Source of the DNA: Billgrantia tianxiuensis
Lineage (GTDB): Bacteria > Pseudomonadota > Gammaproteobacteria > Pseudomonadales > Halomonadaceae
Length of the DNA stretch: 64,000 bases
Reading direction: 5' to 3'
NCBI RefSeq assembly: GCF_009834345.1
Contig: NZ_CP035042.1
Span: 4,092,001-4,156,000, forward strand
Shown here: positions 5,559 to 61,228 of the stretch, one piece after another
Position numbering within the stretch: position 1 is the first letter of the stretch
Layout of the letters: each line of letters starts with the position of its first letter
Made by a program: the position numbers and the translations under genes
Notes under the pieces: generated by a model
Seen by the model: only the letters and a program-made list of their open reading frames with translations
Told to the model about the DNA's origin: nothing
Databases searched by the model: none

Positions 5559-6937
5559 ATGAACATGACCTTCCTGCAGGAGCTGTTCAACAGCATCACC
5601 CAGCGCGACGCCCTGCTGTGGCGGCGCCAGGGCGATACCGGCGCTCCCGACCACGACCAGATGCTCACCGCCTGCCGGGCGCTGCTGGAGAGCGACGGCG
5701 AGGCCTCGAGCATCAGCCTGGCCAGCCGCGCGCTCTCCATGTACAACCGCCTGACGGAGGAGGAGCGCACCCGCTTCTTCGAGGGGCTGGCCAGCGAGTT
5801 CGCCGCCGACCCGGCGCGCATCGACGAGGCCTACTCGGCCTACCGGGAGCGGCGCGACAACCGCAGCCTGCAGGCGCTTTTCGATGCTTGCGAGCCACGC
5901 CGCCAAGAGCTGTTCCGGCGTCTCAACCTGGCCAGCAACGGCACCTATGAGCTGGTACGCATGCGCGAAGGGCTGCTCGCGCGGTTGCGCGAACGGAGCG
6001 ACGACGACAGGCAGGAATTCGAGGCCATCGATGCCGACTTCGCCCACCTGTTCGGCTCCTGGTTCAACCGCGGTTTCCTGGTGCTCAAGCGTATCGACTG
6101 GAACACCCCGGCCTCGATCCTGGAGAAGATCATTCGCTACGAGGCGGTGCACGAGATTCGCGATTGGGACGACCTGCGTCGGCGTCTCGACGCCCGCGAC
6201 CGCCGCTGCTTCGCCTTCTTCCACCCCGCCATTGGCGACGAGCCGCTGATCTTCGTCGAGGTGGCGCTGTGCCGGGGCCTGCCCGACCGTATCCAGCCCA
6301 TCCTCTCGGGGAGCGTGCCGGCGAGCGCGACATCGACGACCCCGAGGCTGCCGACAGCGCCGCCTTCTTCGGCATCAGCAACTGCCAGACCGGCCTGCGC
6401 GGCATCTCCTTCGGCAACTTCCTGATCAAGCAGGTGGTCCAGGAGCTGAAGCTGGAACTGCCCCAGCTCAAGCACTTCGTCACGCTCTCTCCGGTGCCGG
6501 GCTTCGCCGCCTGGCTGGCCGAGCGCCGTGACGACGACATCCTGCCCGACGAGCTGCGCCAGGTGCTGCATGAGCTCGATGCCCCCGAATGGCACCTCGA
6601 CCCGGCCCACAGCGAGCGTCTCAAGGCAGTGGTCAAGCCGCTTGCCGCCCGCTACCTGGTCGAGGAGAAGAACGCTGGCGGCCTGCCGCTCAATCCGGTA
6701 GCCCGCTTCCATCTCGGCAACGGCGCCGAGCTGCATCGCATCAATTGGCTTGGCGACATCTCGCCCAAGGGCTTGAAGCAGGCCGCCGGGCTCATGGTCA
6801 ACTATCTCTACGTGCTCGACGACATCGAGCGCAATCACGAGAACTACACCGCCAATGCCACTGTGGTCTGCTCCAGTGGGGTTCGCGACCTCAATCGCCG
6901 CGCCCGCAAGATGGCCAAAGGAGAGCCTGCCAAATGA
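5559..6937 (+). pseudogene. Malonyl-CoA decarboxylase, interrupted by one frameshift
   Basis: Two reading frames together encode a full-length malonyl-CoA decarboxylase, which converts malonyl-CoA to acetyl-CoA and CO2. The first frame (5559 to about 6308) gives the helical N-terminal domain up to CRGLPDRIQPILS. The second (about 6311 to 6937) continues with GERAGERDIDD and holds the catalytic parts, including HFVTLSPVPGF and FHLGNGAELHRINW with the conserved serine and histidine. Adding one G to the run GGGG at 6308-6311 restores a continuous 459-residue protein. The stop overlaps the next start (ATGA). Because every domain is present and undecayed, a sequencing error or very recent mutation is more likely than an old pseudogene. 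Confidence 0.88.
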
Positions 6938-8451
6938 GTCACAACCTCTTCGAAACCTTCGCCGCCCGCATGCGCGACCGTGGCGATGCCGATTTCATCA
7001 CCACCCGCGAGGGCCGGCGCTACTCCTACCGCGATGCCCTGGACGCCAGCGCCCGCCTGGCCGGTGCGCTGAAAACGCTGGGTGTCGCTCCCGGCGACCG
7101 CGTCGCGGTGCAGGTCGACAAGAGTCCTGAGGCGATCCTGCTCTATCTCGCCTGCCTGCGCATGGGCGGCGTCTACCTGCCGCTCAACACCGGCTATACC
7201 TCTGACGAGATCCGTTATTTCCTCAACGACGCCGAACCGGCGCTGTTCGTGTGCCGCCCCGCCGCCCTCGAGGAGGCCCGCCGCGTGGCCGGCGAGACCG
7301 GCTGCCCGGCGGTGGAGACGCTGGGCACCGACGCCGACGGCAGCCTGCTGACGCTGGCCGAACAGGCCGAGCCCTACGCGAGCATCGAGCCGCGCGAGCA
7401 CGACGACCTCGCCGCCATTCTCTACACCTCGGGCACCACCGGGCGCTCCAAGGGCGCCATGCTGACCCACCGCAACCTGGGCTCCAACGCCGCCACTCTC
7501 AAGGATGCCTGGCGCTTCTCCGCCGAAGACCGGCTGATCCATGCGCTGCCCATCTTTCATACCCACGGGTTGTTCGTCGGCTGCAACGTCACCCTGATGG
7601 CAGGTGCTAGCATGCTGTTCCTGCCCAAGTTCGATGCCGACGTGATCTTCGAGGAGATGCCGCGCGGCACGGTATTGATGGGGGTGCCCACCTTCTATAC
7701 CCGCCTGGTGGCCGATGAGCGTCTCACGCCCGAGGCGACCGCCAGCATGCGCCTGTTCGTCTCCGGCTCCGCCCCGCTCACCGCCGAGACCCACCAGGCC
7801 TTCGAAGCGAAGACGGGGCACGCCATCCTCGAGCGCTACGGCATGACCGAGACCAACATGAACCTCTCCAACCCCTACGACGGCGAGCGCCGTGCCGGTA
7901 CCGTGGGCATGCCGCTGCCGGGGGTGGAGTACCGCATCACCGACCGCGAGACCCACGCGCCGGTACCCCAAGGCGAGATCGGCATGCTCGAGATTCGCGG
8001 CCCCAACGTCTTCATCGGCTACTGGCGCATGCCCGAGAAGACCCGCGAGGAGCTGCTGGAGGATGGCTTCTTCGTCACCGGCGACCTGGCCATGACCGAC
8101 GAGCAGGGCTACGTGCATATCGTCGGTCGCGACAAGGACCTGGTGATCTCGGGCGGCTACAACGTCTATCCCAAGGAGGTCGAGCAGGTCATCGACGAAC
8201 TGGAGGGCGTGGTGGAATCGGCGGTGATCGGTGTGCCGCACCCCGACTTCGGCGAGGGCGTCACCGCCGTGGTGGTACCGGAGCCGGGGGCCAGGCTGGA
8301 GGAAAAGCAGGTGCTTGGCCATCTCGAAGGGCGGCTGGCGAAGTACAAGCAGCCCAAGCGGGTGTTCTTCGCCGAGACCCTGCCGCGCAACACCATGGGC
8401 AAGGTGCAGAAGAACGAGCTGCGCAAGCGCTATCAGGATATCTATCGCTGA
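6934..8451 (+). CDS. matB: Malonyl-CoA synthetase (malonate:CoA ligase)
   Basis: A 505-residue acyl-CoA synthetase of the ANL superfamily. The P-loop-like YTSGTTGRSKGAMLTH is near residue 165, the adenylate motif YGMTETNMNLSNPYDGER near 303 carries the arginine-containing NPYDG(E/D)R signature specific for MatB malonyl-CoA synthetases, and the C-terminal catalytic lysine lies in MGKVQKNELR. It activates malonate with ATP and CoA, and malonyl-CoA decarboxylase then yields acetyl-CoA. The ATG at 6934 overlaps the stop of the decarboxylase, with AAAGGAG upstream. Much longer in-frame extensions upstream lie within the decarboxylase and are not used. Function is well supported by motif and context. 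Confidence 0.95.
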   Translation: MSHNLFETFAARMRDRGDADFITTREGRRYSYRDALDASARLAGALKTLGVAPGDRVAVQVDKSPEAILLYLACLRMGGVYLPLNTGYTSDEIRYFLNDAEPALFVCRPAALEEARRVAGETGCPAVETLGTDADGSLLTLAEQAEPYASIEPREHDDLAAILYTSGTTGRSKGAMLTHRNLGSNAATLKDAWRFSAEDRLIHALPIFHTHGLFVGCNVTLMAGASMLFLPKFDADVIFEEMPRGTVLMGVPTFYTRLVADERLTPEATASMRLFVSGSAPLTAETHQAFEAKTGHAILERYGMTETNMNLSNPYDGERRAGTVGMPLPGVEYRITDRETHAPVPQGEIGMLEIRGPNVFIGYWRMPEKTREELLEDGFFVTGDLAMTDEQGYVHIVGRDKDLVISGGYNVYPKEVEQVIDELEGVVESAVIGVPHPDFGEGVTAVVVPEPGARLEEKQVLGHLEGRLAKYKQPKRVFFAETLPRNTMGKVQKNELRKRYQDIYR

Positions 8452-8472
8452 TCTTGCGTTCGCCACCCAGGC

Positions 8473-8502
8473 CAGCCCGGCCGGTTTGCACCGGCCGGGC
8501 TG
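8473..8502. terminator. Bidirectional hairpin between convergent genes
   Basis: A perfect 13-bp stem, CAGCCCGGCCGGT with ACCGGCCGGGCTG, closes a 4-nt loop between the end of matB and the end of the convergent YjiH-like gene. There is no strong T tract on either side. Its position suits a shared terminator. Confidence 0.6.
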
Positions 8503-8526
8503 CGCTCGTTCCCAACCCTGCTTCTT

Positions 8527-9628
8527 CTAGACCACCAGCGGCGTGACGAAGAAGGCGATCACGAAGGCCGTGACCAGGCGCATCGCGATGCCCAACACGG
8601 CGGCCCCCATCGCCTCGCGCTCGCTAAGGTCGGAGCTCTCCGCCCACACCACCGGCACCTGGCCGAACACGGCGGAGAGCGGCAGGCCCGAGGAGGCCAG
8701 CACGAAGGAGCCGACCACCAGCGAGGGATCGAGATCGGCGGCGATGCTCTGCAGTTGTCCCATGGCCAGGGTCGGGCTGACCAGCACCGACAGCACGCCG
8801 GTTTCGGGATGGATGTTGAACAACAGCATGACCTTGCCCAGCCCCGCCTCGATCGGCGCCCAGATGCCGACGTAGTCGAGCACGCCGATCACGGCGAAGA
8901 CCAGCGCCACGGCGGGAATCAGGATCAACAGCAGCAGCTCCACGCCCTCCCGCGCAGCGCTGAACAGTGTGGGCATGAAGTCGCGCTCGGGGTAAAGGTG
9001 GGCAGATGGCCGATCTCGACCCGCTTGACGTCACGATAGAGCACCTTCGACAGGATCAATGGCGAAATCACCAGCGGCAGGAACACCGCCAGCAGCACCA
9101 CGGCAAAAACGTTGACGCCGGCGAAGGTCAGCGCCATCAGGCCCAGCATGAAGGTGGAAAACGACTGCTGCGACTGCACCATGGTGGCCACGGCGAGCTT
9201 CTGTTCGTCCTTGGTGGCGCCCGCCTTCTTGAGGATCGGCCCGGAGATTTTACCCGCCGCGTTGATGTCGCCGAAGATGTTGTAGACGCTGGGAATGATC
9301 ACTGCCGGATTGACGCCCAAAAGCTTCATGGCGGGCACGAAGATGCGTACCAGGGCATCGGTGAAGCCCAGCCGCTCCAGCAGCCGGCCGATGATCACGC
9401 TGACGATGATCGCCGTACCGACCACGCCGGTGAGGAAGACGTCGACCACCACGGGCCGCACGGAATCGAGAATCGAGTTGAACAGTCCCGAGAGACTGGT
9501 GGGAGAAAGCAGCAACATCAGCAGGCAGATGCACAGCAGTACGATGCCGACCACTTCGATGCGCTTCCAGGCGCGCTTGCTCGCGGGCAGCGCGGGCTTC
9601 GCTTCAGGGTAGTGACTGAGGTCTTCAT
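8527..9628 (-). pseudogene. Nucleoside-recognition (Gate) domain membrane protein, YjiH/YjiG-like, frameshifted
   Basis: Successive minus-strand frames encode a multi-pass membrane protein with two Gate (nucleoside recognition) halves: the first ends near VKRVEIGHLPTFTP and the second begins MPTLFSAAREGVELL. In enterobacteria these halves are separate proteins (YjiH and YjiG). Here a single 367-residue protein is restored by adding one C at the coding-strand run opposite 8989-8992 and one opposite 9607-9609. The latter joins the ATG at 9628, which has GAGG upstream, to PEAKPALPASKRAW. An alternative is two overlapping genes, the first starting at GTG 9554. It follows the NIF3 gene by 91 bp and is probably co-transcribed with it. 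The transported or bound ligand is unknown. Confidence 0.7.
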
Positions 9629-9719
9629 GTCGGTGCCTCTATTGTTGTTGGTTGGGCCTTGTCATTGATCGGGCGCTTGTGGATAACCTGTGTTTAACGT
9701 GTCATAACCCTGTGTCCGC

Positions 9720-10742
9720 TTAGGTCTCGCTCAAGGCATGCTTGCCCAGTAGATGGCTCGCCGACATCTCGCGCGCATAGGCCTGCATGGCCGCGTTGCC
9801 GACCTTGTGCACCGGCGTGGAGGTGACCCGGTCGCGGAACAGCACCACTTCCACGCCTTCGAGCAGCTCGGCGAGGGCATGGGCCAGCGGCAGTCCGTTC
9901 TCCAGAATCTCCATCACGTGGCAATTGCCGACCAGGAAGTTGAGCCCCAGCTCACAGGCCGTCTCGATCAGTTCGTGGCCGGCATAGACGCGGCTGATCG
10001 AGGCCAGCACGGTATCCACATCGGGGTTCTCGGCCACGGCCTGGCGCAGGTTCTCCGGCGAGAAACCGGTATGCGGAAAGATGTGCAGCACGTTCTCGAC
10101 CCGGCTGTCGCGCTCGCCGAGGTGGATGAAGCCTCGGGTCTCCACGCTGGTTTCGCGGATCTCCTCGATGCCGCGCACCAGGCGCTCCTCGGCCAGCAGG
10201 GCACGGTCCTGGTCCAGCGCCATGAAGCCGTCCAGGCGGTCGAGAATGTCGCCCAGGGTGGCGATCCCCGGCAGCGCCTGGCCCACGAACATGATATTGC
10301 CATGCACGCCGCCGTAGGCAATGCTGCCCTTCAGCACTTTGTGGCCGTGCAGGTAGGGAATGCCGGGGTGCAGGCCGTGAAAGGCCTCGTGGCACTCCAG
10401 CCCCGCCACGTCGTAGAGGTCGAGGTAGTTCTTCAGCGTCACCCCGCCGCAGCTGGCGGCATCGGCGATGGGGTGATGCGCCACGACGGCATCCACGCCG
10501 GTGGCGCCCGCCAGTTCGATCACCAGCTCGGTCATGGTCATGCACACGGCGATTTTCTTCACCTCCTTGTTTGGGTCGCCGTAGATCAGCCCCGGAATCT
10601 CCAACACCTCCTTGCCGTAGATGCCGGAGGATTTCAGGATCACGAAGGGGTGATCCCCCCGCTTCACCTCCTCCATGGACGACACCGTCCTGCCGCCCGT
10701 TATCACGCTCATCGCATTGACGATATCCGCTACCTTGGCCAT
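9720..10742 (-). CDS. NIF3-family (DUF34) protein
   Basis: A 340-residue NIF3/DUF34 protein. The di-metal site residues are visible in VVAHHPIADA (near residue 95) and in CHEAFHGLHPG, with a further acidic and histidine cluster (NCHVMEILENG) near the C-terminus. Members bind two metal ions and some have been linked to hydrolysis of cyclic compounds or to metal handling, but the biochemical role is unsettled. The ATG at 10742 has GAGGAG about 8 bp upstream; an upstream in-frame ATG lies inside a terminator hairpin and is rejected. It is followed by the YjiH-like membrane gene, and a strong terminator lies only 36 bp upstream, which suggests attenuation control. Confidence 0.9.
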   Translation of the reverse strand: MAKVADIVNAMSVITGGRTVSSMEEVKRGDHPFVILKSSGIYGKEVLEIPGLIYGDPNKEVKKIAVCMTMTELVIELAGATGVDAVVAHHPIADAASCGGVTLKNYLDLYDVAGLECHEAFHGLHPGIPYLHGHKVLKGSIAYGGVHGNIMFVGQALPGIATLGDILDRLDGFMALDQDRALLAEERLVRGIEEIRETSVETRGFIHLGERDSRVENVLHIFPHTGFSPENLRQAVAENPDVDTVLASISRVYAGHELIETACELGLNFLVGNCHVMEILENGLPLAHALAELLEGVEVVLFRDRVTSTPVHKVGNAAMQAYAREMSASHLLGKHALSET

Positions 10743-15736: not shown

Positions 15737-16720
15737 ATGACGCAATTCCGCTGGAAAACACGCCAGATCATACCCGCCTCCCTGCTGGTACTCGGCAGCC
15801 TGGCGGCCACTACTGCCCAGGCCAATACCGCGCTCAACCTCGGCGCCGTTCCCACCGGCACCGGCTGGTTCTTCGGCATCTCCGAGGGCGCACGGGTGAT
15901 CAGCGCCAATACTCCGTACGAGATTACCGTGCGCGAGACCGGCGGCACCCGCGAGAACGCCATTCGTCTGACCCGCGGCGAACTCGACCTGGCTTTCACC
16001 GAGGCCCTGGTGGGTTATGAAATGTACAACGGCACCGGTCGCTTCGAGGACACCCCCAACCCGGATGCCCGGCTGATCTACTGGATCGCCCCGTCCACCA
16101 TGCACTGGGCGGTGCGCCAGGACAGCGGCATCGAAACCTTCGAAGATCTCAATGGCGAGCGCTTCAACCCAAGCAGCATCGGCGGCGGCGGCGAGTACAT
16201 CACCGAACTGGTGTTCGACATCCTCGGCGTGGAGCCCGACTTCCAGCGCATGCGCATCGACGATGCCGCCGAGGGCGTGGTCGACGGACGCCTGGTCGGC
16301 TTCAGCTATAACGGCGTACCGCCGATCCCGGCCTTCACCGAGGTGCACTCGTCACGCCCGCTGCGGCTGCTGTCGCTCTCCGAGGAGCAGGTCGATCAGG
16401 TCACCGCCGAGCTGCCCTTCCTGACCGGCACTGTGATCCCGGAAGGTACCTACCGCGACATGCCCGAGGCCACCTCGCTCGGCATCTTCATGGGCGTGGC
16501 CGCCAACGCCGACCTCGACGATGATGTGGTCTACGAAATCACCAAGGCGTACTGGGAGAACCAGGAACAGGTCGCGGCCTCGTTCAAACCCGCCGAGGGC
16601 GTGACGCCTCAGACTGTCATCGACAACGCCACCTTCCCGCTGCACGCCGGGGCGCTGCGCTACTATCAGGAGCTGGGACTCGACATCCCCGACGACGTCC
16701 TGCCGCCCGAAGCGCAATAA
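15737..16720 (+). CDS. TAXI-family TRAP solute-binding protein (first copy)
   Basis: A 327-residue periplasmic TAXI binding protein with a signal peptide (about residues 1-29, ending AQA/N). After it comes NLGAVPTGTGWFFGISEG, the variant of the TAXI motif that opens the mature domain, and later the strongly conserved SSIGGGGEYITELVFD and VPPIPAFTEVHSSRPL. It shares these blocks nearly unchanged with the second copy at 20203. It should pass its ligand to the fused permease encoded 98 bp downstream. The ligand is unknown; TAXI proteins often bind dicarboxylates or amino acids such as glutamate. Confidence 0.93.
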   Translation: MTQFRWKTRQIIPASLLVLGSLAATTAQANTALNLGAVPTGTGWFFGISEGARVISANTPYEITVRETGGTRENAIRLTRGELDLAFTEALVGYEMYNGTGRFEDTPNPDARLIYWIAPSTMHWAVRQDSGIETFEDLNGERFNPSSIGGGGEYITELVFDILGVEPDFQRMRIDDAAEGVVDGRLVGFSYNGVPPIPAFTEVHSSRPLRLLSLSEEQVDQVTAELPFLTGTVIPEGTYRDMPEATSLGIFMGVAANADLDDDVVYEITKAYWENQEQVAASFKPAEGVTPQTVIDNATFPLHAGALRYYQELGLDIPDDVLPPEAQ

Positions 16721-20202: not shown

Positions 20203-21186
20203 ATGAGATTGCCCAGCCCACTCCAGCGCGCCCTGAAGCCGCTCGCCGCGGCAACTCTCGCCGCCGGCCTGGTCGCGCCAGCCGCCGCCCAGGAGGCGAT
20301 CGGCATCGGCGTGGCACCGGCGGCTTCCGGCTGGTACTTCGGCTTCTCGGAGCTTTCGCGGCTGGTCAGCGCCGATTCGCCGCTCGAGGTCTCGGTGCGC
20401 GAGACCGGCGGCTCGCGGGAGAACGCCATCCGCCTCGGCCGCGGCGAGATCGACATGGGCCTGATCGACGCCCCGGGCGCCTACGAGGCCTATACCGGCA
20501 CGGGGCGCTACGAGAACGACGCCATCGAGCAGATGCGCATGGTGCTGTGGGTAGCGCCTTCGACCATGCACTGGGCGGTACGCCAGGACAGCGGCATCGA
20601 GACTTTCGAGGATCTCGAGGGCGAGCGCTTCAACCCCAGCAGCATCGGCGGCGGCGGCGAATACATCACCGAACTGGTGTTCGATGCCCTGGGCATCTCA
20701 CCGGACTTCCAGCGCATGAGCATGTCCGATGCCGCCGATGCCGTGGTCGATGGACGCATCGTCGGCTTCAGCTACAACGGCATCCCGCCGATCCCGGCCT
20801 TCACCGAGGTGCACTCCTCACGCCCGCTGCACGTGCTCTCGCTGACCGACGAACAGGTGGCCACCGCCACCGAGGCGCTGCCATTCCTCTCGGCCACCGA
20901 GATCCCCGAAGGCACCTACCGCGACATGCCGGCGGCCACCACGCTTGGCACCTACATCGGCATCGCCGCCACCAGCGACCTCTCGGAGGACGCCGCCTAC
21001 GAATTCACCCGCGCCTACTGGGAGAACGTCGAGCAACTGGGCCAGACCTTCGCCCCGGCCCAGGGCATGAGTGCCGAAATCTCGGTGGAGAACACTGCCA
21101 CGCCGCTGCATGCCGGCGCGCTGCGCTATTACCGCGAGATCGGTATCGAGGTACCGGAGGAACTGGTGCCGCCCGAAGCGCAGTAA
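20203..21186 (+). CDS. TAXI-family TRAP solute-binding protein (second copy)
   Basis: A 327-residue TAXI binding protein, a close paralog of the one at 15737 and of equal length. The signal peptide (about 1-30) ends AAAQ/E, and the mature start differs (EAIGIGVAPAASGWYFGFSE). The core blocks SSIGGGGEYITELVFD, AFTEVHSSRPL and TEIPEGTYRDMP are almost the same. A single permease gene serves both copies, so this may be a second ligand specificity feeding the same transporter. It closes the operon, 47 bp after the decarboxylase-like gene. Confidence 0.93.
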   Translation: MRLPSPLQRALKPLAAATLAAGLVAPAAAQEAIGIGVAPAASGWYFGFSELSRLVSADSPLEVSVRETGGSRENAIRLGRGEIDMGLIDAPGAYEAYTGTGRYENDAIEQMRMVLWVAPSTMHWAVRQDSGIETFEDLEGERFNPSSIGGGGEYITELVFDALGISPDFQRMSMSDAADAVVDGRIVGFSYNGIPPIPAFTEVHSSRPLHVLSLTDEQVATATEALPFLSATEIPEGTYRDMPAATTLGTYIGIAATSDLSEDAAYEFTRAYWENVEQLGQTFAPAQGMSAEISVENTATPLHAGALRYYREIGIEVPEELVPPEAQ

Positions 21187-29172: not shown

Positions 29173-29441
29173 ATGAAATATCAGAAAACCGCACTGTTTC
29201 TTGCCCTCGTTCTAGCCTCGGGATTTGCCTTGGCCGAAAAGGGGCAGAAGAGCTGGTTCCGCTACCTCCCACTTCCTCGCATACCGGCCAGAACGGCTTC
29301 GATCGGCTGGACCTGGATGGGGATGGCTATATCTCACGTGAAGAGGCCCAGGCGGGTACGCTGCCGGAGATATTCCTGTTCATGGATCGCAGCCATGACG
29401 GCAGGATCTCCCGCCAGGAGTTCCACCACCGTCCGCGTTGA
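29173..29441 (+). pseudogene. Exported EF-hand protein, frameshifted
   Basis: The first frame encodes a clear Sec signal peptide (about 22 residues, ending ALA/E) and continues to SWFRYLP. The next frame encodes two EF-hand loops, DLDGDGYISREE and DRSHDGRISRQE, and ends at 29441. Adding one C in the run CCC at 29268-29270 restores an 89-residue protein (joined through RYLPTSSHTGQNGFD). It resembles the EF-hand protein at 25466 in size and layout. AGGA lies 8 bp upstream of the ATG. Probably intact in the organism. Confidence 0.8.
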
Positions 29442-34374: not shown

Positions 34375-37300
34375 GCGACGTGACGCAGCTAAATCCGCTC
34401 GATTTTCCCTTACATGGGAGCAGGTTGATAGAGGCGAGCGCCGGTACGGGCAAGACCTTCACCATCGCCCTGCTCTACGTGCGCCTGGTGCTCGGCGCCC
34501 GCTCGGCCGACGACGATACCGCCTTCGAGCGCCCGCTCACGCCGCCCGAGATCCTCGTCGTCACCTTCACCAACGCCGCCACCCAGGAGCTGCGCGAGCG
34601 TATCCGTGCGCGGCTGGTCGAGGCGGCCAATGTTTTTCTGCAACCGGTGGAAGGCGCCGAGGGCGACGGTCTTCTTCTTCAATTACGCGACCAGTATGAC
34701 CCCGCCACCTGGCCCGCCTGCGCCCGGCGCCTGCAGCTCGCCGCCGAATGGATGGACGAAGCCGCCGTCTCCACCATCCACAGTTGGTGCTATCGCATGC
34801 TGCGCGAGCACGCCTTCGACAGCGGCAGTCTGTTCTCGCTCGACCTGGAAAACGACCAGACCGAGATGGAACTCGAGGTGGTGCGCGACTACTGGCGCAG
34901 CTTCTACTACCCGCTCAACCTCGACGAGCTGGCCACCGTGGTGCGCCACTGGAGCACGCCCGAGCAGCTCCACGCCGCCGTGCGCGGTCTGATGCCCGAA
35001 GCCGAAGCGCTGAACAAGAATGCCCCGCCCCGGCCGAGACCATCGCCAACGCCAGCCGCGAGACCGCCGAGCGCCTGGCCCAGCTCAAGGCCCCCTGGCC
35101 CCAGTGGGTGGACGAGTGCGAAGCGCTGTTCGAGGAGGCCGCCCAGCAGAAGGCCTTCAAGGGCCAGAGCTTCAACGCCAAGAGCCGCGCCAACTGGCTC
35201 GGCGCCCTGCGTGAATGGTGCCAAGGGGAGGCCACCTGGCCCGGCCTGACCGATGCCGCCTGGAAGCGCCTCACGCCCCAGGGTATGGCCGATATCTGGC
35301 TCAAGGGCGAGCCGCCGGATCACCCGGCGCTGGCTGCGCTGGAAAAGCTCCAGGACGAACTCAACGCCCTGCCCGATCCCTACGCCGACCTGCTCACCCA
35401 CGCCGTGCACTGGTGCCGGGCGCGACTCGACCGCGAGCAGGAACGCCGCGCCGAGATGGGCCCCAACGAGCTGCTCACCCATCTCGACCGGGCGCTCACC
35501 GGCCCCAACTGCGAAGCGCTGGGCGCGCAGATACGCCGGCAGTTCCCGGTCGCCCTGGTCGACGAGTTCCAGGACACCGACCCGGTGCAGTACCGCATCT
35601 TCGACTGCGTCTACCGCATCCATGAGAACCGCCCAGAGTGCGGAGTCTTCCTGATCGGCGACCCCAAGCAGGCGATCTACGCCTTCCGCGGCGCCGACAT
35701 CCACACCTACCTGCGCGCCCGCCGCGACACCCAAGGCCGCCACGTCACCCTGGGCACCAACTTCCGCTCCAGCCGCGAGATGGTCGAGGCGGTGAACCGC
35801 TGCTTCGCATTCGCCGAAGCGCACCCGCCCGGCGCCTTCCTGTTCAACTCGCCCGAGGGGAACCCCGTTCCCTTCCTGCCCGTGGGAGCGAAAGGTCGCA
35901 AAGACTCACTCACCCGCCAGGGCCAGCCCCTGCCGGCGATGACCCTGTGGCAGCTTGAGTGCGACGAACCGCTCTCCAAGACCGCCTACCAGCAGGAGAT
36001 GGCCGAGCGCTGCGCCTCCACCATGGTGGAGCTGCTCAACGAGGGGCTAAGTGGCCGCACCGGCTTCCTCAACGAGCAGGGCGAATTGCAGCCACTCAAG
36101 CCTTCCGATATGGCGGTGCTGGTCAACGGCCTGGGCGAGGCGCGCTCTATCCGTCAGGCGCTGGCCCGGCGCGGGGTGAAGAGCGTCTACCTCTCGGACA
36201 AGGACAAGGTGTTCGCCTCGCCCGTCGCCCCCAGCTCGACGCCTGGCTGCGCGCCTGCGCCGAGCCCGGCGCTTCTTCAGGACAGGGGGACCGACTGCTG
36301 CGCACCGCCCTGGCCACCCCGGTGCTGGGGCTCGAAAACGCCACGCTGGATAAGTTGAACGAAGACGAGCTGGCCTGGGAAGGCCGCGTGCTGCAGTTCC
36401 GCGACTACCATCGGCTGTGGCAGCGCCAGGGCGTGCTGCCACTGGTGCGCAAGATCATCCACGACTTCGACGTGGCGCAGCGGCTGCTCTCCAGCGGCCC
36501 CGCCAGCGAGGGTGAGCGCTTCCTAACGGATCTACTGCACCTGGGTGAACTCTTGCAGCACGCCAGCCAGGAGCTCGACGGCGAACACGCGCTGATCCGC
36601 TTTCTCGCCGAAGCCATCGCCAACCCCGAAGGCCACGGCGATACCCACAAGCTGCGCCTGGAGAGCGACGCCGACCTGGTGCAGGTCATCACCATTCACA
36701 AGTCCAAGGGGCTGGAGTACCCGCTGGTGTTCCTGCCCTTCATCTGCAACCACCGCCCGACCAGGAAGGACGACTCGCCGCTGCGCTGGCACGACGCCGA
36801 GGGCCGCCTGCGCATCAGCCTGGAAGCCGACGAGGAGACCCTGGCCACCGTCGACCGCGAACGACTGGGTGAGGACCTGCGCAAGCTCTACGTGGCGCTG
36901 ACCCGCGCGCGCCACGCCACCTGGCTTGGCATGGCCCCGCTCAAGGGCGGCGAAGGCAGCGCCATCGGCCAGCTGCTGGCCAACGGCGAACCGCTGAGCC
37001 CGGCAGGATTCCCCAGCGCACTCACCCGGCTCAAGGGCGACTGCGCCGCCATCGAGATCGCCCCGGCGCCGCCGGCCCATGCGCAGATCGTCCGCCAGAC
37101 CGAGCGCGACGATGCCCTTGGCGAAGCACGTTCCCCCACGCGCCCCGCCCGGGAACACTGGTGGATTGCCAGCTATTCGGCGCTGCGCCTCTCCGGCGAG
37201 ATCGTCAGCGTCGAATCGGCCAGCGCCCCAGTAAGGACTGACTTACCGCCAAGCCCCCATGACAGCGAAGCGCAGCGGAGCGACAGCCTGCCCGAACCCG

Positions 37301-38166
37301 CCACCGCCATGGAAGCCACCGCGTTGGAGGTATTGGAAGAGCCCCGCGACAGCGGCCAGAGCGAACCGTTGCCTTCCTTGCATCGGTTCCCCCGGGGTCC
37401 AGGGCCTGGCACCTTCCTCCACGGGATTTTGGAGTGGGCTGGGGAACTGGGCTTCACCCGCGTGGCCCGCGACCCCGCCCTGCGCGAGGAGACCCTGGCC
37501 CGGCGCTGCCAGGTGCGCGGCTGGCAGCCGTGGCTGAACACCCTGCACGCCTGGTTCGGCACCCTGCTCGCCGCCCCGCTGCCGCTGCCCAACGGCGCGG
37601 GCAGCCTCAGGCTCGAAGCGCTCAGCCGCTACCAGGTCGAGATGGAGTTCTGGTTCGCCTCGCGCCAGGTCGACACCCGTCGGCTGGACGCCCTCGTAAG
37701 TGCTTACACACTGGCAAGCCCGGATAACAGCTCGGATGCCGGCCTGCCCCGCCCCGCGCTGGATGCCGACACCCTCAACGGCATGCTCAAGGGCTTCATC
37801 GACTTGGTGTTCGAGCATGAGGGGCGCTACTACGTGGCCGACTGGAAATCGAACCACCTGGGGCCGGACGACAGCGCCTACAGCCAGGAGGCCATGCGCC
37901 AGGCGGTGGCCGCCAAGCGCTACGACCTGCAGTACGCGCTCTACCTGCTGGCCCTGCATCGTCTGCTCAAGGCGCGCCTGCCGGGCTACGATTACGACCG
38001 CCATATCGGCGGCTCGCTCACCGTCTTTCTCCGGGGCGCCAACGCCGAGAGCCGAGGCGTATACGCCGAGCGCCCCCCGCGGGAGTTGATCGAAGCGCTG
38101 GACGCGCTGTTCCAGGGCGACACCCGAGCGGCAGGCACCCGCACCACCACGGAGGCGCCGGCATGA
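34371..38166 (+). pseudogene. recB: Exodeoxyribonuclease V subunit beta (RecB), interrupted by two frameshifts
   Basis: Three frames together encode a full-length RecB. The first (34371 to about 35026) has Walker A EASAGTGKTFTIA, the second (about 35027-36230) runs through the UvrD-type helicase with VDEFQDTDPVQYR, GDPKQAIYAFRGAD and ending VFASPVAP, and the third (from about 36232) starts LDAWLRACAEP and contains VYVALTRARHATW-like motif VI and the C-terminal nuclease motif ADWKSNHLG. Adding one C in 35023-35031 and one C in 36228-36232 gives a 1265-residue protein. It overlaps recC (ATGA) at its start and recD (ATGA) at its end. All motifs are undamaged, so the shifts are probably sequence errors. 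Confidence 0.92.
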
Positions 38167-40520
38167 GCAAGCGCATCAAGCACCACGACGACGCCACCCC
38201 GGACCTGTTCGCCGATCTCGGAGAGGAACCAGCAGGCAGCTGCCAGGCAGCCGACGAGGGCGCCGAACCTGAACCGCCCCAAGCCGAGCCGGAACCGAAC
38301 CAAGCCGCGCCGGGCAGCGCACAAGCCGCGCTTCACGACACCCAGGCACTGTTCGCCCTGCTCGACCGCTGGGTGGAGCGCGGCTGGCTGCGCGCGCTGG
38401 ATCGGGCACTGGCGAGCTTCTTCCAGCGCGAGGTGAACGACGCCCCGCCCCTGCTGCTACTCGCCGCGGCGCTGGCCAGCCATCAGCTTGGCCGCGGCCA
38501 CGTGTGCCTCGACCTCGCCCAGACCCTCGCCGCTCCCGACCTGGCGCTCTCGCTGCCGCCGGAAGGCGACGACCTTAGCGACCCGCCGCCGCTGCCAAGC
38601 GACCTATTGGCCGAACTGGATCTCGCCACCTGGCGCGACGCCCTGCACCACACCGCCCTGGTGGCGGACGGCAACGAACCACCGGGAAACACCCCGCTGG
38701 TGCGCAGCGAACGCGACGGCAACGTGCGGCTCTACCTGCGCCGCTACTGGCAGTACGAGCAGGACATTCGCGGCCTGATCGGCAGCCGGCTTACAGCCGC
38801 CACCGAGGCAGAAGCCGATACCGTCACCCTGGCCCGGGCACTGGCCGCGCTCTTTACCCCAGGGCATGAACTCGACTGGCAGCAGGCCGCCTGTGCGCTG
38901 GCCAGCCGCTCGCGCTTCGCCGTGATCACCGGTGGCCCCGGCACCGGCAAGACCACCACCGTGGTCAAGTTGCTCGCCCTGCTCCAGGCGCTGGCCCTGG
39001 GGGAGCCGGTACAGGCGGGCTCAAGCGCCCCGCGCCCGCTGCGCATTCGCCTGGCCGCCCCCACCGGCAAGGCTGCCGCCCGGCTCAACGAATCCATCGC
39101 CAAGCAGGTGCAGGGGCTTTCGCTGGTGGAACTGGCCGCCGCCGTGGGCCAACAGGGTGTGGATATCTCAACCCTGCGCGACAGCATTCCCACCGAAGTC
39201 ACTACGCTGCATAGATTGCTGGGCTCACGGCCGGATACCCGCCACTTCCGTCACCACGCCGGCAACCCGCTGGCGCTGGACGCCCTGGTGATCGACGAAG
39301 CCTCGATGGTGGATATCGAGATGATGGCTGCCGTGCTCACCGCCCTGCCGCCCAAGGCGCGACTGATTCTGCTCGGCGACAAGGACCAGCTCGCCTCGGT
39401 GGAGGCCGGCGCCGTGCTCGGCGACCTGTGCCAACGCGCCGAAGGCGGCCACTACACCCCGGCCACCTGCGACTGGCTGCAACGGGTGACCGGCACGCCG
39501 ATTCCCGAGCAATACCGGGACGAAACCGGCCAGCCGCTGGACCAGGCCATCGCCATGCTGCGGGTGAGCCACCGCTTCGATGCCAAAAGCGGCATCGGCC
39601 AGCTCGCCGAAGCGGTCAACCGCCCGCTCGCACCCGAGCATGGGCAAAAAGAGAAAAAACGCGCGGTACGCGAAATCTTCGGCACTGATGAAAAGTCACG
39701 CTACGCCGACATCGCCCGGCTCGCCCTGGCGGACGCCGACGACTCGGCGCTGGATCGCCTGGTGGTGAATGGCAACCCGGCTGGTTTCATCAACAGCGGC
39801 GAAGGCCGCCATGACCGACGCGGCGAGCCCATCGCCCCGCCCCGCGGCTACGCTCACTACCTGGAAGTGAGGCAGGCCGCGCGGCCCGCCCAGCCGTTCT
39901 TTGGCGAAGGCGATGCACGCCAGCCCTACGACGACTGGGCCCGCCAGGTACTCGCCGCCCACGGCCATTTCCAGTTGCTGTGCGCACTGAGAAAAGGCCC
40001 CTGGGGCATCGAAGGGCTGAACCCGCGCATCGGCCGCGCACTGCGCCGCGCCGGCTGGCTCAAGGCCAGCGACCTGGAGCTGGAACAGGGCTGGTTCGAA
40101 GGCCGCCCGGTGCTCGTTACCCGCAACGACTACGGCTTGGGGCTGATGAACGGCGATATCGGCATCACCCTCGCCGTGCCCGAAGCTCGCAGCGCAAGCG
40201 AAACGCCCGGCCGCACCCTGCTGCGCGTCGCCTTCCCGGCCAGCGACGGCAGCGGCGACATCAAATGGGTGCTGCCCAGCCGCCTGCAAGCGGTGGAAAC
40301 CGTATTCGCCATGACGGTACACAAATCCCAGGGCTCGGAATTCACCCACACCGCCCTGCTGCTCCCCGACGCCCCCAATCCCATCCTCACCCGGGAGCTG
40401 GTCTATACCGGCATCACCCGGGCGCGGGACTGGCTGACGCTGGTGGAGACGGGCCGCGGCATGCTGGATGAGGCGGTGACGAGGGAGGTGGTCAGGGTGA
40501 GTGGGTTGGGGAAGTTGTAA
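38163..40520 (+). CDS. recD: Exodeoxyribonuclease V subunit alpha (RecD)
   Basis: A 785-residue superfamily 1B helicase. Walker A ITGGPGTGKTTTVVKLLALL is near residue 258, Walker B DALVIDEASMVDI near 380, GDKDQLASVEAG follows, and the late motifs TVHKSQGSEF and YTGITRA are near the C-terminus. It provides the fast 5'-3' motor of RecBCD. It is longer than E. coli RecD (608), partly from an N-terminal acidic, proline-rich extension (about residues 20-60) and from a segment near residue 495-570 (KKRAVREIFGTDEKSRY and after). It overlaps the recB stop by ATGA. The function is well supported. Confidence 0.95.
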   Translation: MSKRIKHHDDATPDLFADLGEEPAGSCQAADEGAEPEPPQAEPEPNQAAPGSAQAALHDTQALFALLDRWVERGWLRALDRALASFFQREVNDAPPLLLLAAALASHQLGRGHVCLDLAQTLAAPDLALSLPPEGDDLSDPPPLPSDLLAELDLATWRDALHHTALVADGNEPPGNTPLVRSERDGNVRLYLRRYWQYEQDIRGLIGSRLTAATEAEADTVTLARALAALFTPGHELDWQQAACALASRSRFAVITGGPGTGKTTTVVKLLALLQALALGEPVQAGSSAPRPLRIRLAAPTGKAAARLNESIAKQVQGLSLVELAAAVGQQGVDISTLRDSIPTEVTTLHRLLGSRPDTRHFRHHAGNPLALDALVIDEASMVDIEMMAAVLTALPPKARLILLGDKDQLASVEAGAVLGDLCQRAEGGHYTPATCDWLQRVTGTPIPEQYRDETGQPLDQAIAMLRVSHRFDAKSGIGQLAEAVNRPLAPEHGQKEKKRAVREIFGTDEKSRYADIARLALADADDSALDRLVVNGNPAGFINSGEGRHDRRGEPIAPPRGYAHYLEVRQAARPAQPFFGEGDARQPYDDWARQVLAAHGHFQLLCALRKGPWGIEGLNPRIGRALRRAGWLKASDLELEQGWFEGRPVLVTRNDYGLGLMNGDIGITLAVPEARSASETPGRTLLRVAFPASDGSGDIKWVLPSRLQAVETVFAMTVHKSQGSEFTHTALLLPDAPNPILTRELVYTGITRARDWLTLVETGRGMLDEAVTREVVRVSGLGKL

Positions 40521-52024: not shown

Positions 52025-52142
52025 TTGTCTTCCCTGCATTGCTGCGGCGCTGATTGGCTTTTGGACATGTTAATGCGATGCCGAGATGATCGACACCTAG
52101 CCGCCTATTACTGTGGCCTCTGTATCAAGGCGGTACACTGAC

Positions 52143-52916
52143 ATGAAGTCCCTTATGGCAAGGCAAACCGCATCGATGAACGATTTCTCACCTTCTGCCC
52201 CCCGTGCCGCGGATTGCGGCGCACCCACGCTGACAGCACTGGGCGGCCACCAGGTTCTTTTCGCCATGGCCGCCGAGGCCGAGTACGGGCCTCATCTCAA
52301 GCAGCGTTTTATTCCGATCATGACCGGCGTCGGCCCGGTGGAGGCGGCAGTGGAACTCACCGCGGCCCTGGCAGCTCTTGCTCAGCAGGGACGCCTGCCG
52401 GATCTGGTGGTGTCGCTGGGCTCAGCGGGCAGCCGGGTGCTCGAGCAGACCGAGATCTATCAGGCGACGTCCGTTGCCTACCGCGACATGGACGCCTCAC
52501 CGCTGGGCTTCGAGAAGGGCACCACGCCCTTTCTCGACCTTCCGGCGATCGTTCCCCTGCCACTACGCATTCCCGGCATTCGTGAAGCGACGCTCTCGAC
52601 CGGGGCTAATATCGTCTCGGGCGAGGCCTATTCCGCCATCGCCGCCGAGATGGTGGACATGGAGAGCTACGCCTGCCTGCGCGCCTGCACCCGCTTCGAT
52701 GTTCCGCTGGTGGTGCTGCGCGGCATCTCGGACGGCAAGGCGGAGCTACACCACGTCGACGACTGGACGGAGTACCTCCACGTCATCGACGAGAAGCTGG
52801 CCGCCGCCCTGGACCGGCTCGGCGAGGCGCTGGCCGGGGGCTGTTGGATCGCTGACGCTCATGGGTGGCCGGGTCAGGGAGTGTCCGACGCGGCTTCGCC
52901 CCCTTCCGGGCCATAG
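52143..52916 (+). CDS. 5'-methylthioadenosine/S-adenosylhomocysteine nucleosidase family protein
   Basis: A nucleoside phosphorylase-fold protein (about 257 residues from this start) with MTAN features: ITGVGPVEAA-type stretch (MTGVGPVEAAVEL near 60), LVVSLGSAGSRVLE, SGEAYSA, and the purine-site MVDMESYACLRAC with the catalytic Glu and Asp nearby (LRGISDGKAELHHVDDW). It would cleave methylthioadenosine, S-adenosylhomocysteine or 5'-deoxyadenosine. The start is not sure: ATG codons at 52143, 52155 and 52176 all fit. Its 3' end overlaps the convergent cupin gene by 43 bp. There is a weak C-terminal extension compared with E. coli Pfs. Confidence 0.85.
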   Translation: MKSLMARQTASMNDFSPSAPRAADCGAPTLTALGGHQVLFAMAAEAEYGPHLKQRFIPIMTGVGPVEAAVELTAALAALAQQGRLPDLVVSLGSAGSRVLEQTEIYQATSVAYRDMDASPLGFEKGTTPFLDLPAIVPLPLRIPGIREATLSTGANIVSGEAYSAIAAEMVDMESYACLRACTRFDVPLVVLRGISDGKAELHHVDDWTEYLHVIDEKLAAALDRLGEALAGGCWIADAHGWPGQGVSDAASPPSGP

Positions 52917-53215
52917 AAGAACACCCAGGTGGCGAAGTCGTCGGTGAAGTCTTCGAACCGGTGGACGACGCCCGCCGGCACGAACAGCACCTCACCGGCC
53001 TCGAAGGGCTGTCGGGTGTCACCGTTGACGAAATGGCCCGAGCCGGAGATGACGACATACACCTCGTCTCGGGTATGCGGCATTTGCCGGTCCACGCCTT
53101 CCGGCTTGTAGATCTCGACCTGGAGCGAGCCGTGTCGGAACACCTCGGCAAAGGGCACACCGTTATTGTCCTGCAGCTTCTTCAATGCCGCCGGTGGGAT
53201 CAGGCGCTCCATCAT
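52874..53215 (-). CDS. Cupin-domain protein
   Basis: A 113-residue single-domain cupin with the two motif halves HTRDEVYVVISGSGHFVNGD (residues near 47-66) and FVPAGVVHRFEDF (near 78), giving likely metal-binding histidines and a glutamate. The role is unknown; small cupins of this type bind metal and may act as dioxygenases or sensors. The stop lies inside the end of the convergent nucleosidase gene. Confidence 0.88.
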   Translation of the reverse strand: MMERLIPPAALKKLQDNNGVPFAEVFRHGSLQVEIYKPEGVDRQMPHTRDEVYVVISGSGHFVNGDTRQPFEAGEVLFVPAGVVHRFEDFTDDFATWVFFYGPEGGEAASDTP

Positions 53216-53962: not shown

Positions 53963-53963
53963 C

Positions 53964-54301
53964 ATGAAAACGAGACACGTCACCCTCAGCCCCCAAGCCT
54001 CCCTCTCGCTTCGCCTGTTCGCCGGGTTGATCGAGGAGGGGCGGCTACGCAAGGGTTGGACCCGGGACGAACTCGCCGAGCGGGTGGGCGTTGGTGTGGT
54101 CACGATCCGCCAGATCGCCAAGGGTTCCCCCGGGTAGCCATCGGCACCTACTTCGAAGCAGCTACGCTGGTCGGCGTATCGCTGTTCACCGATGATTCTG
54201 ACACCCTGAAACGCGAGTACACCACCCAGTTGGAACGGCTGTCACTCTTGCCCAAGCGTGCCTACCGCCAGCCGCGAGAGCCTCTCGACGATGACTTCTA
54301 G
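53964..54301 (+). pseudogene. hipB: HipB-like antitoxin, interrupted by one frameshift
   Basis: The first frame encodes an N-terminal Xre-type DNA-binding domain (LFAGLIEEGRLRKGWTRDELAERVGVGVVTIRQI), then stops after GSPG. The following frame continues PRVAIGTYFEAATLVGVSLF and ends LDDDF at 54301. Adding one C to CCCCC at 54127-54131 restores a 112-residue protein. Both halves are well conserved and it overlaps the hipA start by 11 bp. The antitoxin should neutralise HipA and repress the operon through the palindrome before the ATG. With an intact hipA beside it, a true loss is unlikely. Confidence 0.82.
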
Positions 54302-55550
54302 CCAACGTGCCTATGTTTGGGTCTGGCTGCCCAATCAGACCTCTCCAGTGACCGCCGGCCTAGTGGAACGCGACGATCGGGATCGGGATCGGTACCGTTT
54401 CGCTTACGGGCGGCGCTATCTTGCCCGAGAGGATGCCATCAGCCTTTTTCCCCGTGAGCTTCCCCTGCGCCCCGGCAGCCAGGAACAGGCAGACGGCACA
54501 CTGCCTTCTTGCCTGCGGGATGCGTCCCCAGACGCCTGGGGGCGCCGTGTCATCATCAACCGGCTGACGGGAAAGACAGGCGCGAGAGCCGATCAGGCCG
54601 ACTTCAATGAAATGGTTTATCTGCTGGAATCGGGATCGGATCGAATCGGCGCGCTCGATTTTCAGCTCTCTCCCACCGAATATCAGCCTCGCGAATATCA
54701 AGATGCCTCCTTGGCGGAGTTGCAGACGGCTTCTGAATACGTGGAGGCGGGGGAGCCGCTACCTCCCGCTCTCGACCAGGCCATTCAGCACGGCAGCAGT
54801 ATCGGCGGCGCCCGCCCCAAGGCTCTGTTAAATGATCGGGATCGCAAGCTGGTGGCGAAATTCTCTTCCAGCACCGACCTCTATAGCGTGGTAAAGGCGG
54901 AGTTCGTCGCCATGCGCCTCGCCAGTCTCGTGGGACTCGATGTGGCTCCCGTCGAGATGACCCGCTCGCTGGGTAAAGACGTGCTGCTGGTAGAACGCTT
55001 CGACCGCATGAAAACCGTCGACGGTTGGTCCCGGAGGATCGTCCTTTCGGCATTGACTCTGTTAGGCCTTGACGAGATGACCGCTCGCTATGCCAGTTAT
55101 GAGGATCTGGGCCATCTCATACGGGCGGAATTCGACCAGCCGGGTTCAACCCTCCAGGAACTGTTCGGGCGCATCGTCTTCAACATACTTTGCGGCAATA
55201 CCGATGACCACGCTCGCAACCACGCTGCCTTCTGGGATGGCGAGACCTATCGGCTGACGCCAGCCTATGACATTTGCCCACAATCAAGAACCGGGGGAGA
55301 AGCCACTCAAGCGATGCTGCTGCACGACCAGGAGCGTCGCAGCCAGCTTGTCCATTGCCTGAGGGCAGCTGAGGGACTTGGTCTAACCCAAATGCAGGCA
55401 AAAGAGATCATCGGCCGCCAGCTCGCCACGATTCGGGAACGGTGGGAAAGCGTTTGCGATGAAGCCGACTTGAGCAAAGTCGACCGGGACTATCTTTGGG
55501 GCAGGCAGTTTCTCAATCCCTTCGCGCTGGAGGGGTATCGCGAGTCTTGA
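54291..55550 (+). CDS. hipA: HipA-family serine/threonine kinase toxin
   Basis: A 419-residue HipA-type kinase. The N-terminal HipA domain and PSCLRDASPDAWGRR near 84 are followed by the glycine-rich GSSIGGARPKALLND that closes the ATP site, then AKFSSSTDLYSVVKAEFVAM, and FNILCGNTDDHARNHAAFWD carrying the catalytic Asp, with LTPAYDICPQ for magnesium binding. In E. coli HipA phosphorylates GltX and causes persistence. The start at 54291 lies inside the hipB end. Its 3' end overlaps the convergent nitroreductase gene by 38 bp. Confidence 0.9.
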   Translation: MTSSQRAYVWVWLPNQTSPVTAGLVERDDRDRDRYRFAYGRRYLAREDAISLFPRELPLRPGSQEQADGTLPSCLRDASPDAWGRRVIINRLTGKTGARADQADFNEMVYLLESGSDRIGALDFQLSPTEYQPREYQDASLAELQTASEYVEAGEPLPPALDQAIQHGSSIGGARPKALLNDRDRKLVAKFSSSTDLYSVVKAEFVAMRLASLVGLDVAPVEMTRSLGKDVLLVERFDRMKTVDGWSRRIVLSALTLLGLDEMTARYASYEDLGHLIRAEFDQPGSTLQELFGRIVFNILCGNTDDHARNHAAFWDGETYRLTPAYDICPQSRTGGEATQAMLLHDQERRSQLVHCLRAAEGLGLTQMQAKEIIGRQLATIRERWESVCDEADLSKVDRDYLWGRQFLNPFALEGYRES

Positions 55551-58103: not shown

Positions 58104-58169
58104 GGCTCACCTCTCCCTGGGGAATGTCCAACGAGCTGAAGCATAGCCCAGGCCGTCGCGGCCCTCCGC

Positions 58170-58511: not shown

Positions 58512-58626
58512 CGCTTCACCTCGAATGCATTGAAATTTCTCGCTTGGAACCTGTAGCGGTTACATACAAGGCAGCGTGCTATCGACAAGCCTAGCATGAG
58601 CATGATCTGCCAAGAACAACGAGGGC

Positions 58627-59127: not shown

Positions 59128-59158
59128 GCTGCCCTACCGGCGTCTGTTGCTTGAATGG

Positions 59159-59278
59159 ATGCTGCTTGGCCTGCTGCCGGCCAACCAGGCGCACCGCCGC
59201 GACATGTTCGATGCCCTACCCTCGGCCTATATCGGTACGGGGGAGTTTCGTATCTGCCGCTGCGGCGAAGCTGATTGA
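59159..59278 (+). other. Short unassigned ORF, possible remnant
   Basis: A 39-codon reading frame (MLLGLLPANQAHRRDMFDAL, then an ending with FRICRCGEAD) lies after the DUF962 gene. It has an in-frame open extension upstream to about 59124. Two cysteines near the end suggest a partial zinc-type protein, but no family is recognised and coding is not established. Confidence 0.3.
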
Positions 59279-59293
59279 ACGGCGGCAGATGCC

Positions 59294-60025
59294 TCACTTC
59301 ATCTCGAAGCCGCGCTGGGTAAGGAACTCCCGCATGTGGGCGCGCAGCTTGCTGTCGAACAGCGGGGTCAGGTTCCGCGACCAGTTGGAATCCTTGGTGC
59401 CACCGCGACGCTCACTGTAATAGTGCTGCATGGCATCATCGAAGGCGGCCACCAGCTCGCTGTCGTCGGTGTAATAGTCCTCCTTGAGGATCGCTTCCAC
59501 CGGCAGGCGCGGCTTGACGTCCGGATCGGCGGCCGGGTAGCCGAGGCACATGCCGAATACCGGATAGACGTGTTCGGGCAGGTGCAGCAGGTCGCTGATG
59601 GCCTGCGGGTTATTACGAATGCCGCCGATGTAGCAGATCCCGAGACCCTCGGACTCGGCGGCGATGGCCACGTTCTGGGCCATCAGCGCCGTATCCACGC
59701 TGGCTACCAGCAGTTGCTCGGTCATACCGCGCACGACGTTGGCGCCGGTGCGTTCCGAGGCCTCGGTGGGTCGCTTCATGTCGGCGCAGAACACCAGGAA
59801 ATCGGAGGCGGTAGCTACGTACGACTGCCCGCCGGCCAGCTCGGCGATCCTCTCGCGGTTGGCCGGGTTCTTAACGTGGATGACGGTATAGGCCTGGACA
59901 TGGCTGGAGGTCGCGGCGGCCTGACCGGCACGAATCAGCTCGACCAAGAGCTCATGCGGGATCTTGCGGTCGGTGAATTTGCGAATCGAGCGATGGGATT
60001 TCAGCAGTTCGATGGTGGGGTTCAT
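59294..60025 (-). CDS. nfsA: NfsA-like oxygen-insensitive NADPH nitroreductase
   Basis: A 243-residue FMN nitroreductase with the N-terminal SHRSIRKFTDRKIP, the HSSHVQAYTVI-like segment TSSHVQAYTVIHV, and the glycine-rich GLGICYIGGIRNN near 128. The late FGMCLGYPA, then the C-terminal helix, is typical of NfsA. It would reduce nitroaromatics and quinones with NADPH. It stands alone; the spacer to the GFA gene is 178 bp. Confidence 0.88.
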   Translation of the reverse strand: MNPTIELLKSHRSIRKFTDRKIPHELLVELIRAGQAAATSSHVQAYTVIHVKNPANRERIAELAGGQSYVATASDFLVFCADMKRPTEASERTGANVVRGMTEQLLVASVDTALMAQNVAIAAESEGLGICYIGGIRNNPQAISDLLHLPEHVYPVFGMCLGYPAADPDVKPRLPVEAILKEDYYTDDSELVAAFDDAMQHYYSERRGGTKDSNWSRNLTPLFDSKLRAHMREFLTQRGFEMK

Positions 60026-60203
60026 GTCGCCTCATGATATGCGTGTCGTTTCGTTACCCTGCTTATTATCTTTTATTTCGACGCGCATTGCATTTCGCCA
60101 GGCGCTGGGCTGACCGCTATCTTTGGCATTATCGTCGCCGAAGGGCACTTTGCCCCCTTAGGCCCCCTGAAGCTCCGGTTACTCGATCCCTAGGAGGCGC
60201 AGC

Positions 60204-60596
60204 ATGGACCAGTACACCGGCGGTTGCCTCTGCGGCAACGTGCGCATCGTGGCGTCGGGACGCCCCTACCGCGTCGGCATCTGTCACTGCCTGGACTGCC
60301 GCAAGCATCATGGCGCGCTCTTCTACGCCTCCGCGGTGTTCCTCCAGGAGGCGGTAGCGATCGAAGGCGAAACCCGCGACTACCATGGGCGCTTCTTCTG
60401 CCCCCGCTGCGGCTCGTCGGTGTTCGCCCGCACCGGGGACGAAGTCGAGGTGCACCTGGGCACCCTGGATACCCCTGACCAGCTAAGGCCCACCTACGAA
60501 AGTTGGGTCGTGCGCCGCGAGGCCTGGCTGCCGCCGTTTCCGCACATGAAGCGCTACGACTGCGATCGTGACGATACGGGGCGGATTGAGGAGTAG
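60204..60596 (+). CDS. GFA-family (CENP-V/GFA) zinc-binding protein
   Basis: A 130-residue GFA-family protein with zinc ligands in GGCLCGNVRI, CHCLDCRKHHGA and CPRCGSSVFA, and LGTLDTPDQLRP near 90. It is a paralog of the one at 49512. Its last 20 residues are charged (HMKRYDCDRDDTGR). AGGAGG precedes the ATG. The physiological substrate is unknown. Confidence 0.88.
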   Translation: MDQYTGGCLCGNVRIVASGRPYRVGICHCLDCRKHHGALFYASAVFLQEAVAIEGETRDYHGRFFCPRCGSSVFARTGDEVEVHLGTLDTPDQLRPTYESWVVRREAWLPPFPHMKRYDCDRDDTGRIEE

Positions 60597-60617
60597 CCGC
60601 GCGGCGAAAGGGGTCTC

Positions 60618-61228
60618 TCAAAAAGTGCCCGAGGCCAGCGGCAGCCACACGTGTTCGTAGCCGATGGTGATCGCGACCCACACCAGCAGCGCGGCCATGG
60701 CGAGGCTGAAGCCCTTCAGCAGCCAGGGACTCGCGAGGCGCTGACCAACCACGGCGCCCATGAGCGCGTAGCTGGTGGGAGCTCCAAAGGCCAGTGCAGC
60801 CAGCCCGAGCGACCAGAACAGCAGGCTCACGCCATGGATGCCGGCGGCGGGGAACTGGATGGTGGCGATCGGCAGGGTTGCGATCATCGCCTTGGGGTTG
60901 CAGAGCTGCATGATCAGGCCATCACGGAAGCTCAGCACGCGCGGTACGTGTTTTACCGCACCAAGATCGATGCTGGAGCGGGCGACCTTGAGCGCCAGGT
61001 AGAGAATGTAGCCGCACCCCACTGCCCCACCACCGCGAGCATGTCGCCGCGCACCCAGGCCGCCCCGGCCCAACCGAATAGCAGGAATAGCGTGAGCATG
61101 GCGAGCCCCACGCCGGCGAAGAAGCCAAGCGATGTCTTGGCCTGGCCGTTGAGGCCGGCGTTCAGGCCGAGCAGGTTCACGGGCCCAGGCGTGTACATGA
61201 CGCCCAGGGCATAGGCGACGATCTCCAT
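60618..61228 (-). pseudogene. LysE-family amino acid exporter, interrupted by one frameshift
   Basis: The first frame starts at ATG 61228 (SD GGAG), MEIVAYALGVMYTPGPVNLLGL, and runs to RGDMLAVVG; the second continues GCGYILYLALKVARSSI to a final VWLPLASGTF at 60618. The GPVNLLGLNAG motif and five to six membrane helices are those of LysE-type exporters. Adding one G (coding strand) to the run opposite 61025-61028 restores a 203-residue protein. An AraC gene lies 59 bp upstream on the same strand. Likely intact in reality. Confidence 0.85.

Follow-up and report, generated by a model that had tools for sequence, protein, structure and literature searches.

Homopolymer indels in long-read bacterial assemblies have been described as a source of frame shifts and false pseudogenes (Homopolish, PMC8011154; Kastor, PMC12007338), and in an example given in the Kastor report runs of four to five bases were those most often followed by a deletion (PMC12007338). 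The genome of Billgrantia tianxiuensis (GCF_009834345.1), a single contig of 5,015,118 bases (NZ_CP035042.1), resembles the cases outlined in these reports, with frame-shifting homopolymer indels and apparently false pseudogenes. The window analysed here is the 64,000-nucleotide stretch at positions 4092001-4156000 of that contig, where recB, a hipB-like antitoxin gene and several further genes are broken by one-base shifts of frame. Judging from the comparisons set out below, these breaks are almost certainly consensus errors of the assembly and not biology.

Within the genus, the Nanopore assembly of Billgrantia sp. SL18_1 consists of one contig of 4.14 Mb with a completeness of 93.65% (PMC13297067), and for Billgrantia sp. 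C5P2 a combination of PacBio HiFi and paired short reads gave 4.76 Mb with a completeness of 99.27% (PMC13248617). As far as the genome description of SL18_1 goes, its likeness to B. tianxiuensis consists in the genus group, the single contig and the lowered completeness (PMC13297067). The completeness of B. tianxiuensis is 95.21%, and all ten of the other congeneric assemblies of one or two contigs that were drawn reach 99-100%; several fragmented congener genomes lie below the B. tianxiuensis value for other causes. Members of the Halomonas/Billgrantia group are free-living halophiles, and it is in these two genera that the nearest named relatives of the window are found, the best RecD match being that of Billgrantia antri (93%). 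The reference genome G057, also a single contig, is 94% identical to B. tianxiuensis over positions 33000-38500 of the window.

The initial annotation had listed eight one-base shifts in six genes of the window, each at a run of G or C, and had read them as systematic homopolymer loss. Frame changes were located by tblastn of the open reading frames (ORFs) of relatives against the unaltered window, with DNA alignments as support, and family names were checked on the relatives' copies of the genes. All eight shifts are present, and seven lie where they had been placed; the eighth, in an EF-hand gene, belongs elsewhere in that gene. At every site B. tianxiuensis is one base short, so that all shifts have the same sign. 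The G/C runs that had been named do occur in the sequence, and the flanks are undecayed, with codons conserved on both sides of each scorable site.

Is the loss a peculiarity of the window? The census covered 400 kb of the genome in three distant blocks, plus the window, and the matching blocks of G057 and a second reference, G053. A shift was counted only if it involved a single base, lay clear of the ORF ends and was flanked on either side by conserved codons; in a looser list, before filtering, indels at the ends of ORFs or in badly aligned stretches were numerous. Against G057, B. tianxiuensis shows 28 losses and 1 gain in 268,911 nt (254 genes), and against G053 33 losses and no gain in 228,886 nt (213 genes). 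In the controls, G057 against G053 gave 5 losses and 2 gains in 257,417 nt, and G053 against G057 gave 2 losses and 1 gain in 257,914 nt. One G053 ORF (102 aa, block 1, 52897-53026) was excluded afterwards because it is doubtful and three of its four sites recur in G057; this drops 4 of the 43 merged sites, and removes 4 of the 33 losses of B. tianxiuensis and 3 of the 5 losses of G057 against G053. Losses were seen in all four sampled regions. The sampled rate, one break in conserved coding sequence per approximately 7-10 kb, agrees with the eight to nine breaks in the window, and a cause local to the window was rejected on the similar rate elsewhere in the genome. Taking the coding share from the ORFs of the window (86% of the genome, or about 4.3 Mb), the rate extrapolates to some 450-550 breaks over the chromosome.

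The surroundings of the 39 retained sites, four of which are sites of the window, point to G/C runs. A G/C run is the longest run nearby at 35 of them and has a length of at least three at 33, as compared with 33.5% of 20,000 random positions that have a G/C run of at least three as the longest nearby. For G/C runs of at least four, the figures are 22 of 39 sites against 8.2% of 20,000 random positions. A T on the 5' side of a C run is somewhat commoner than expected (13 of 37 G/C sites; 19% in the background). Among conserved G/C runs of at least three, B. tianxiuensis has lost 8 of 2,559 and gained none relative to G057, and lost 5 of 1,510 and gained none relative to G053; for conserved A/T runs of at least three the losses are 0 of 249 and 1 of 197, respectively. 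In the reverse direction, G057 has lost one G/C run. The strict flanks demanded for this table leave it too sparse for loss rates by run length. G/C runs of at least six are scarcer in B. tianxiuensis, with 69 in 464 kb as against 145 and 105 in the 480 kb of each of the two references; the GC content of the compared blocks is 63.5%, 65.3% and 62.3%, respectively.

The ribosomal RNA genes provide a test that does not depend on reading frames. Among the four 23S copies of B. tianxiuensis (L224, L227, L230, L233) there are one substitution column and five gap columns, and at every gap a G/C run lacks one base. The share of shortened runs climbs with their length, from 0 of 272 at length three to 1 of 80, 3 of 28 and 4 of 8 at lengths four, five and six (8 of 388 in total). 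None of the 248 A/T runs of three to five bases was lost; at lengths four and five alone the comparison stands at 0 of 48 for A/T and 4 of 108 for G/C, which is no proof of a base preference. The 23S copies of G057 have lost none of 402 G/C runs; they differ by 8 substitution columns and 92 gap columns, 91 of which are accounted for by two inserts in two copies. In G053, 3 of 376 G/C runs are lost, all in one of the four copies (L231), and the G053 assembly thus seems to contain a few errors of the same kind. Comparing the rRNA copies within one genome is a cheap way of exposing such assemblies that needs no reference.

As an observation in its own right, the inserts in G057 are found in copies L229 and L232, where they lie close to alignment columns 1154 and 1200, are 33 and 58 columns long and resemble intervening sequences.

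Genes that a cell can hardly lose are also affected. In B. tianxiuensis, ffh is split across two frames that match profile positions 1-164 and 158-428, and in the profile search no ffh match in this genome reaches the family cut-off; this cut-off is 473.2 bits, and the G057 protein exceeds it with 596.6 bits. The next match to the ffh profile in B. tianxiuensis, with 224.7 bits over positions 24-298, is likely to be FtsY, a protein whose profile hits Ffh as well. The gene trmD is split at profile positions 172/169, its first part alone exceeding the cut-off, and rimM has a break near the gene end that is seen against G057 only. Both ffh and trmD are generally essential. Essential and untranslated genes are therefore affected alike, as ffh, trmD and the 23S genes illustrate.

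Altogether, the breaks have the marks of a homopolymer-length error: indels at runs, a one-sided sign, loss that rises with run length, and blindness to function. The systematic loss proposed in the initial annotation is borne out by the one-sided losses in all four sampled regions, by the splits of ffh and trmD, and by 23S copies that disagree almost only in shortened G/C runs. The proposed course of events is that G/C homopolymers would have been called one base short at some stage from base calling to the final consensus, with a chance of loss that would increase with run length, as it does on the 23S copies, and with effects reaching across the genome as they do in each region of the sample. 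Given that the genome is a single contig and that the errors are of this type, the likeliest source is a long-read assembly without accurate polishing. The genes that appear broken, recB and hipB among them, are most likely intact in the living cell. If the breaks are consensus errors, the remark that the cell would lack RecBCD and carry an unopposed HipA is moot, and neither a loss of RecBCD nor an orphan HipA should be inferred. The breaks would have no importance as biology; they do matter as data hygiene, since from a genome that represents its species and contains hundreds of spurious breaks one would wrongly conclude that RecBCD is lost, that HipA is an orphan and that genes are decaying.

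Several observations sit less easily with consensus error. At the junctions in ffh, trmD and mutS, the runs in B. tianxiuensis are of three bases or fewer, so these junctions by themselves do not demonstrate loss from long runs; a run of three may formerly have been one of four. None of the 272 G/C runs of three in the 23S copies was lost. Near 6 of the 39 sites there are only short or A/T runs. The exclusive involvement of G/C is in part an effect of composition, conserved A/T runs of at least three being about tenfold rarer than G/C runs in the aligned genes (249 and 2,559). In the Kastor example A/T runs are hit more than G/C runs, in contrast to the G/C dominance seen here (PMC12007338); the scarcity of A/T runs in the genes of B. 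tianxiuensis accounts for part of this dominance. Of the 43 merged sites, 18 were found against both references and 25 against one only. At column 920 of the 23S alignment all four copies lack one base, outside any run, that is present in all eight copies of the relatives, a difference that may be real. Finally, the aligned 16S copies of B. tianxiuensis show no gaps and no loss.

Might the breaks be real all the same? A mutator lineage, in which the loss of mismatch repair shrinks homopolymers and genes decay, would account for the state of mutS, which reads as two frames in B. tianxiuensis (C1:719430-721975) and is whole in G057 and G053. Such a split would matter if it were real; it is probably the same artefact, being itself a break of the kind in dispute. 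Slippage without repair produces both gains and losses, yet losses far outnumber gains here (28:1 and 33:0). Essential genes are not spared, and a mutator would be hardly viable without ffh; moreover, the four 23S copies differ by only one substitution column. A mutator lineage is thus very improbable. Real breaks might instead be bridged at the G/C runs, either by slippage during transcription or by programmed frameshifting of the ribosome, a reading that would fit the position of most breaks at runs and the conservation of the protein on both sides. However, many of the runs have just 2-4 bases, which is short for known slippage, the same losses occur in 23S rRNA that is never translated, and the breaks of the window are absent from the relatives examined. 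We give this explanation next to no credence, and it is scarcely believable that the losses are real and that the organism tolerates hundreds of breaks, including those in ffh and trmD, with short G/C runs acting as sites of efficient recoding or slippage.

The remaining alternative accepts that most breaks are assembly errors and holds that at least one gene of the window is a true pseudogene. The controls also have one-base breaks (2 and 5 losses per approximately 258 kb), so a low true rate is possible for any gene, and the break at 9607-9609 of the window has the thinnest support. Against this, codon conservation extends to both flanks of the scorable sites, and the number of errors expected per 64 kb already covers the eight to nine seen. 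A true pseudogene among the window genes is therefore unlikely.

The breaks of the window, all best read as consensus errors, differ in how many relatives bear on them. The recB gene (34371-38166, forward strand) is broken twice: at 35023-35031, where the frame changes from 3 to 2, and at 36228-36232, where it changes from 2 to 1, in both cases against five of five relatives. The G057 copy matches TIGR00609. The comparison with relatives that the initial annotation had recommended shows that 78 of the 80 named loci have recB in a single ORF of 1100 aa or more; the exceptions are L066, which is cut by the start of its contig, and L043, in several frames. In the latter (6192-9896, Vreelandella azerica), recB matches as four pieces in three frames, and either the assembly or the gene looks broken.

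The malonyl-CoA decarboxylase gene (5559-6937, forward strand) passes from frame 3 into frame 2 at 6308-6311 or immediately after it when compared with G053, G041 and G057, the G057 reference being a fused ORF of 815 aa. A one-base gap in the DNA alignment is seen against G008 too; G010 lacks this stretch. The G053 copy carries PF05292 and PF17408. On the reverse strand, a YjiH-like gene at about 8527-9630 has a break at 8989-8992, seen as a frame change against G008 and G010, and a second one near its start at 9607-9609, inside the first seven or so codons, where the evidence is a one-base DNA gap against the same two relatives. Residues 1-373 lie in one frame in 13 of 14 loci, two of which are G008 and G010; the fourteenth locus is shorter and matches in part only. 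The name YjiH-like is unconfirmed by Pfam, the Gate-domain match of 29.1 bits falling below the cut-off of 29.6.

In the EF-hand gene (29173-29441, forward strand), the break had been placed at 29268-29270; it lies instead in the G run 29241-29244, some 27 bases further upstream. The G057 protein matches in frame 3 from 29220 onward, and the DNA gap falls in this run against G041, G057 and L009, of which L009 and G041, with contigs of equal length, are probably one genome. An EF-hand domain was found in the G057 copy. A LysE-like gene at about 60624-61228 on the reverse strand has a frame change at 61025-61028 against G057, with the same gap against G041, and PF01810 is found in the G057 copy.

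A ninth site, absent from the initial list, was found in a phosphorylase-superfamily gene (ORF 52113-52916, forward strand) close to its end, at 52836-52840. Five of five relatives match only up to 52841, and there is a one-base gap against four; PF01048 is present in the G057 copy. A further break suspected in the gene at 212-1690 was rejected, as the matches of the relatives stay in a single frame as far as their start region.

The hipB-like antitoxin gene (53964-54301, forward strand) reads in two frames, with the break at 54127-54131. Twenty loci were viewed, one of which is that of B. tianxiuensis itself (L202) and two of which do not cover hipB; in all 17 covering loci of relatives the gene is one ORF, and HTH_3 is found in an intact copy from a relative. 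The hipA-like gene that follows (54258-55550, forward strand) is one open frame with HipA_C and Couple_hipA domains (P0004). In relatives hipA starts about 33 bases further in, and the complete ORFs have 416-424 aa. The gene for the helix-turn-helix antitoxin lies directly upstream of the HipA-domain gene, and the two ORFs adjoin in the relatives. By gene layout and domains, the pair is a predicted HipBA toxin-antitoxin system, in which the antitoxin would neutralise the kinase. Some match to the pair was present in 54 of the 275 genomes searched, B. tianxiuensis included.

Elsewhere in the window, positions 15834-16713 and 20327-21184 are approximately 74-75% alike, as judged through their matches in G008 and G010, and are likely to be a paralogous pair.

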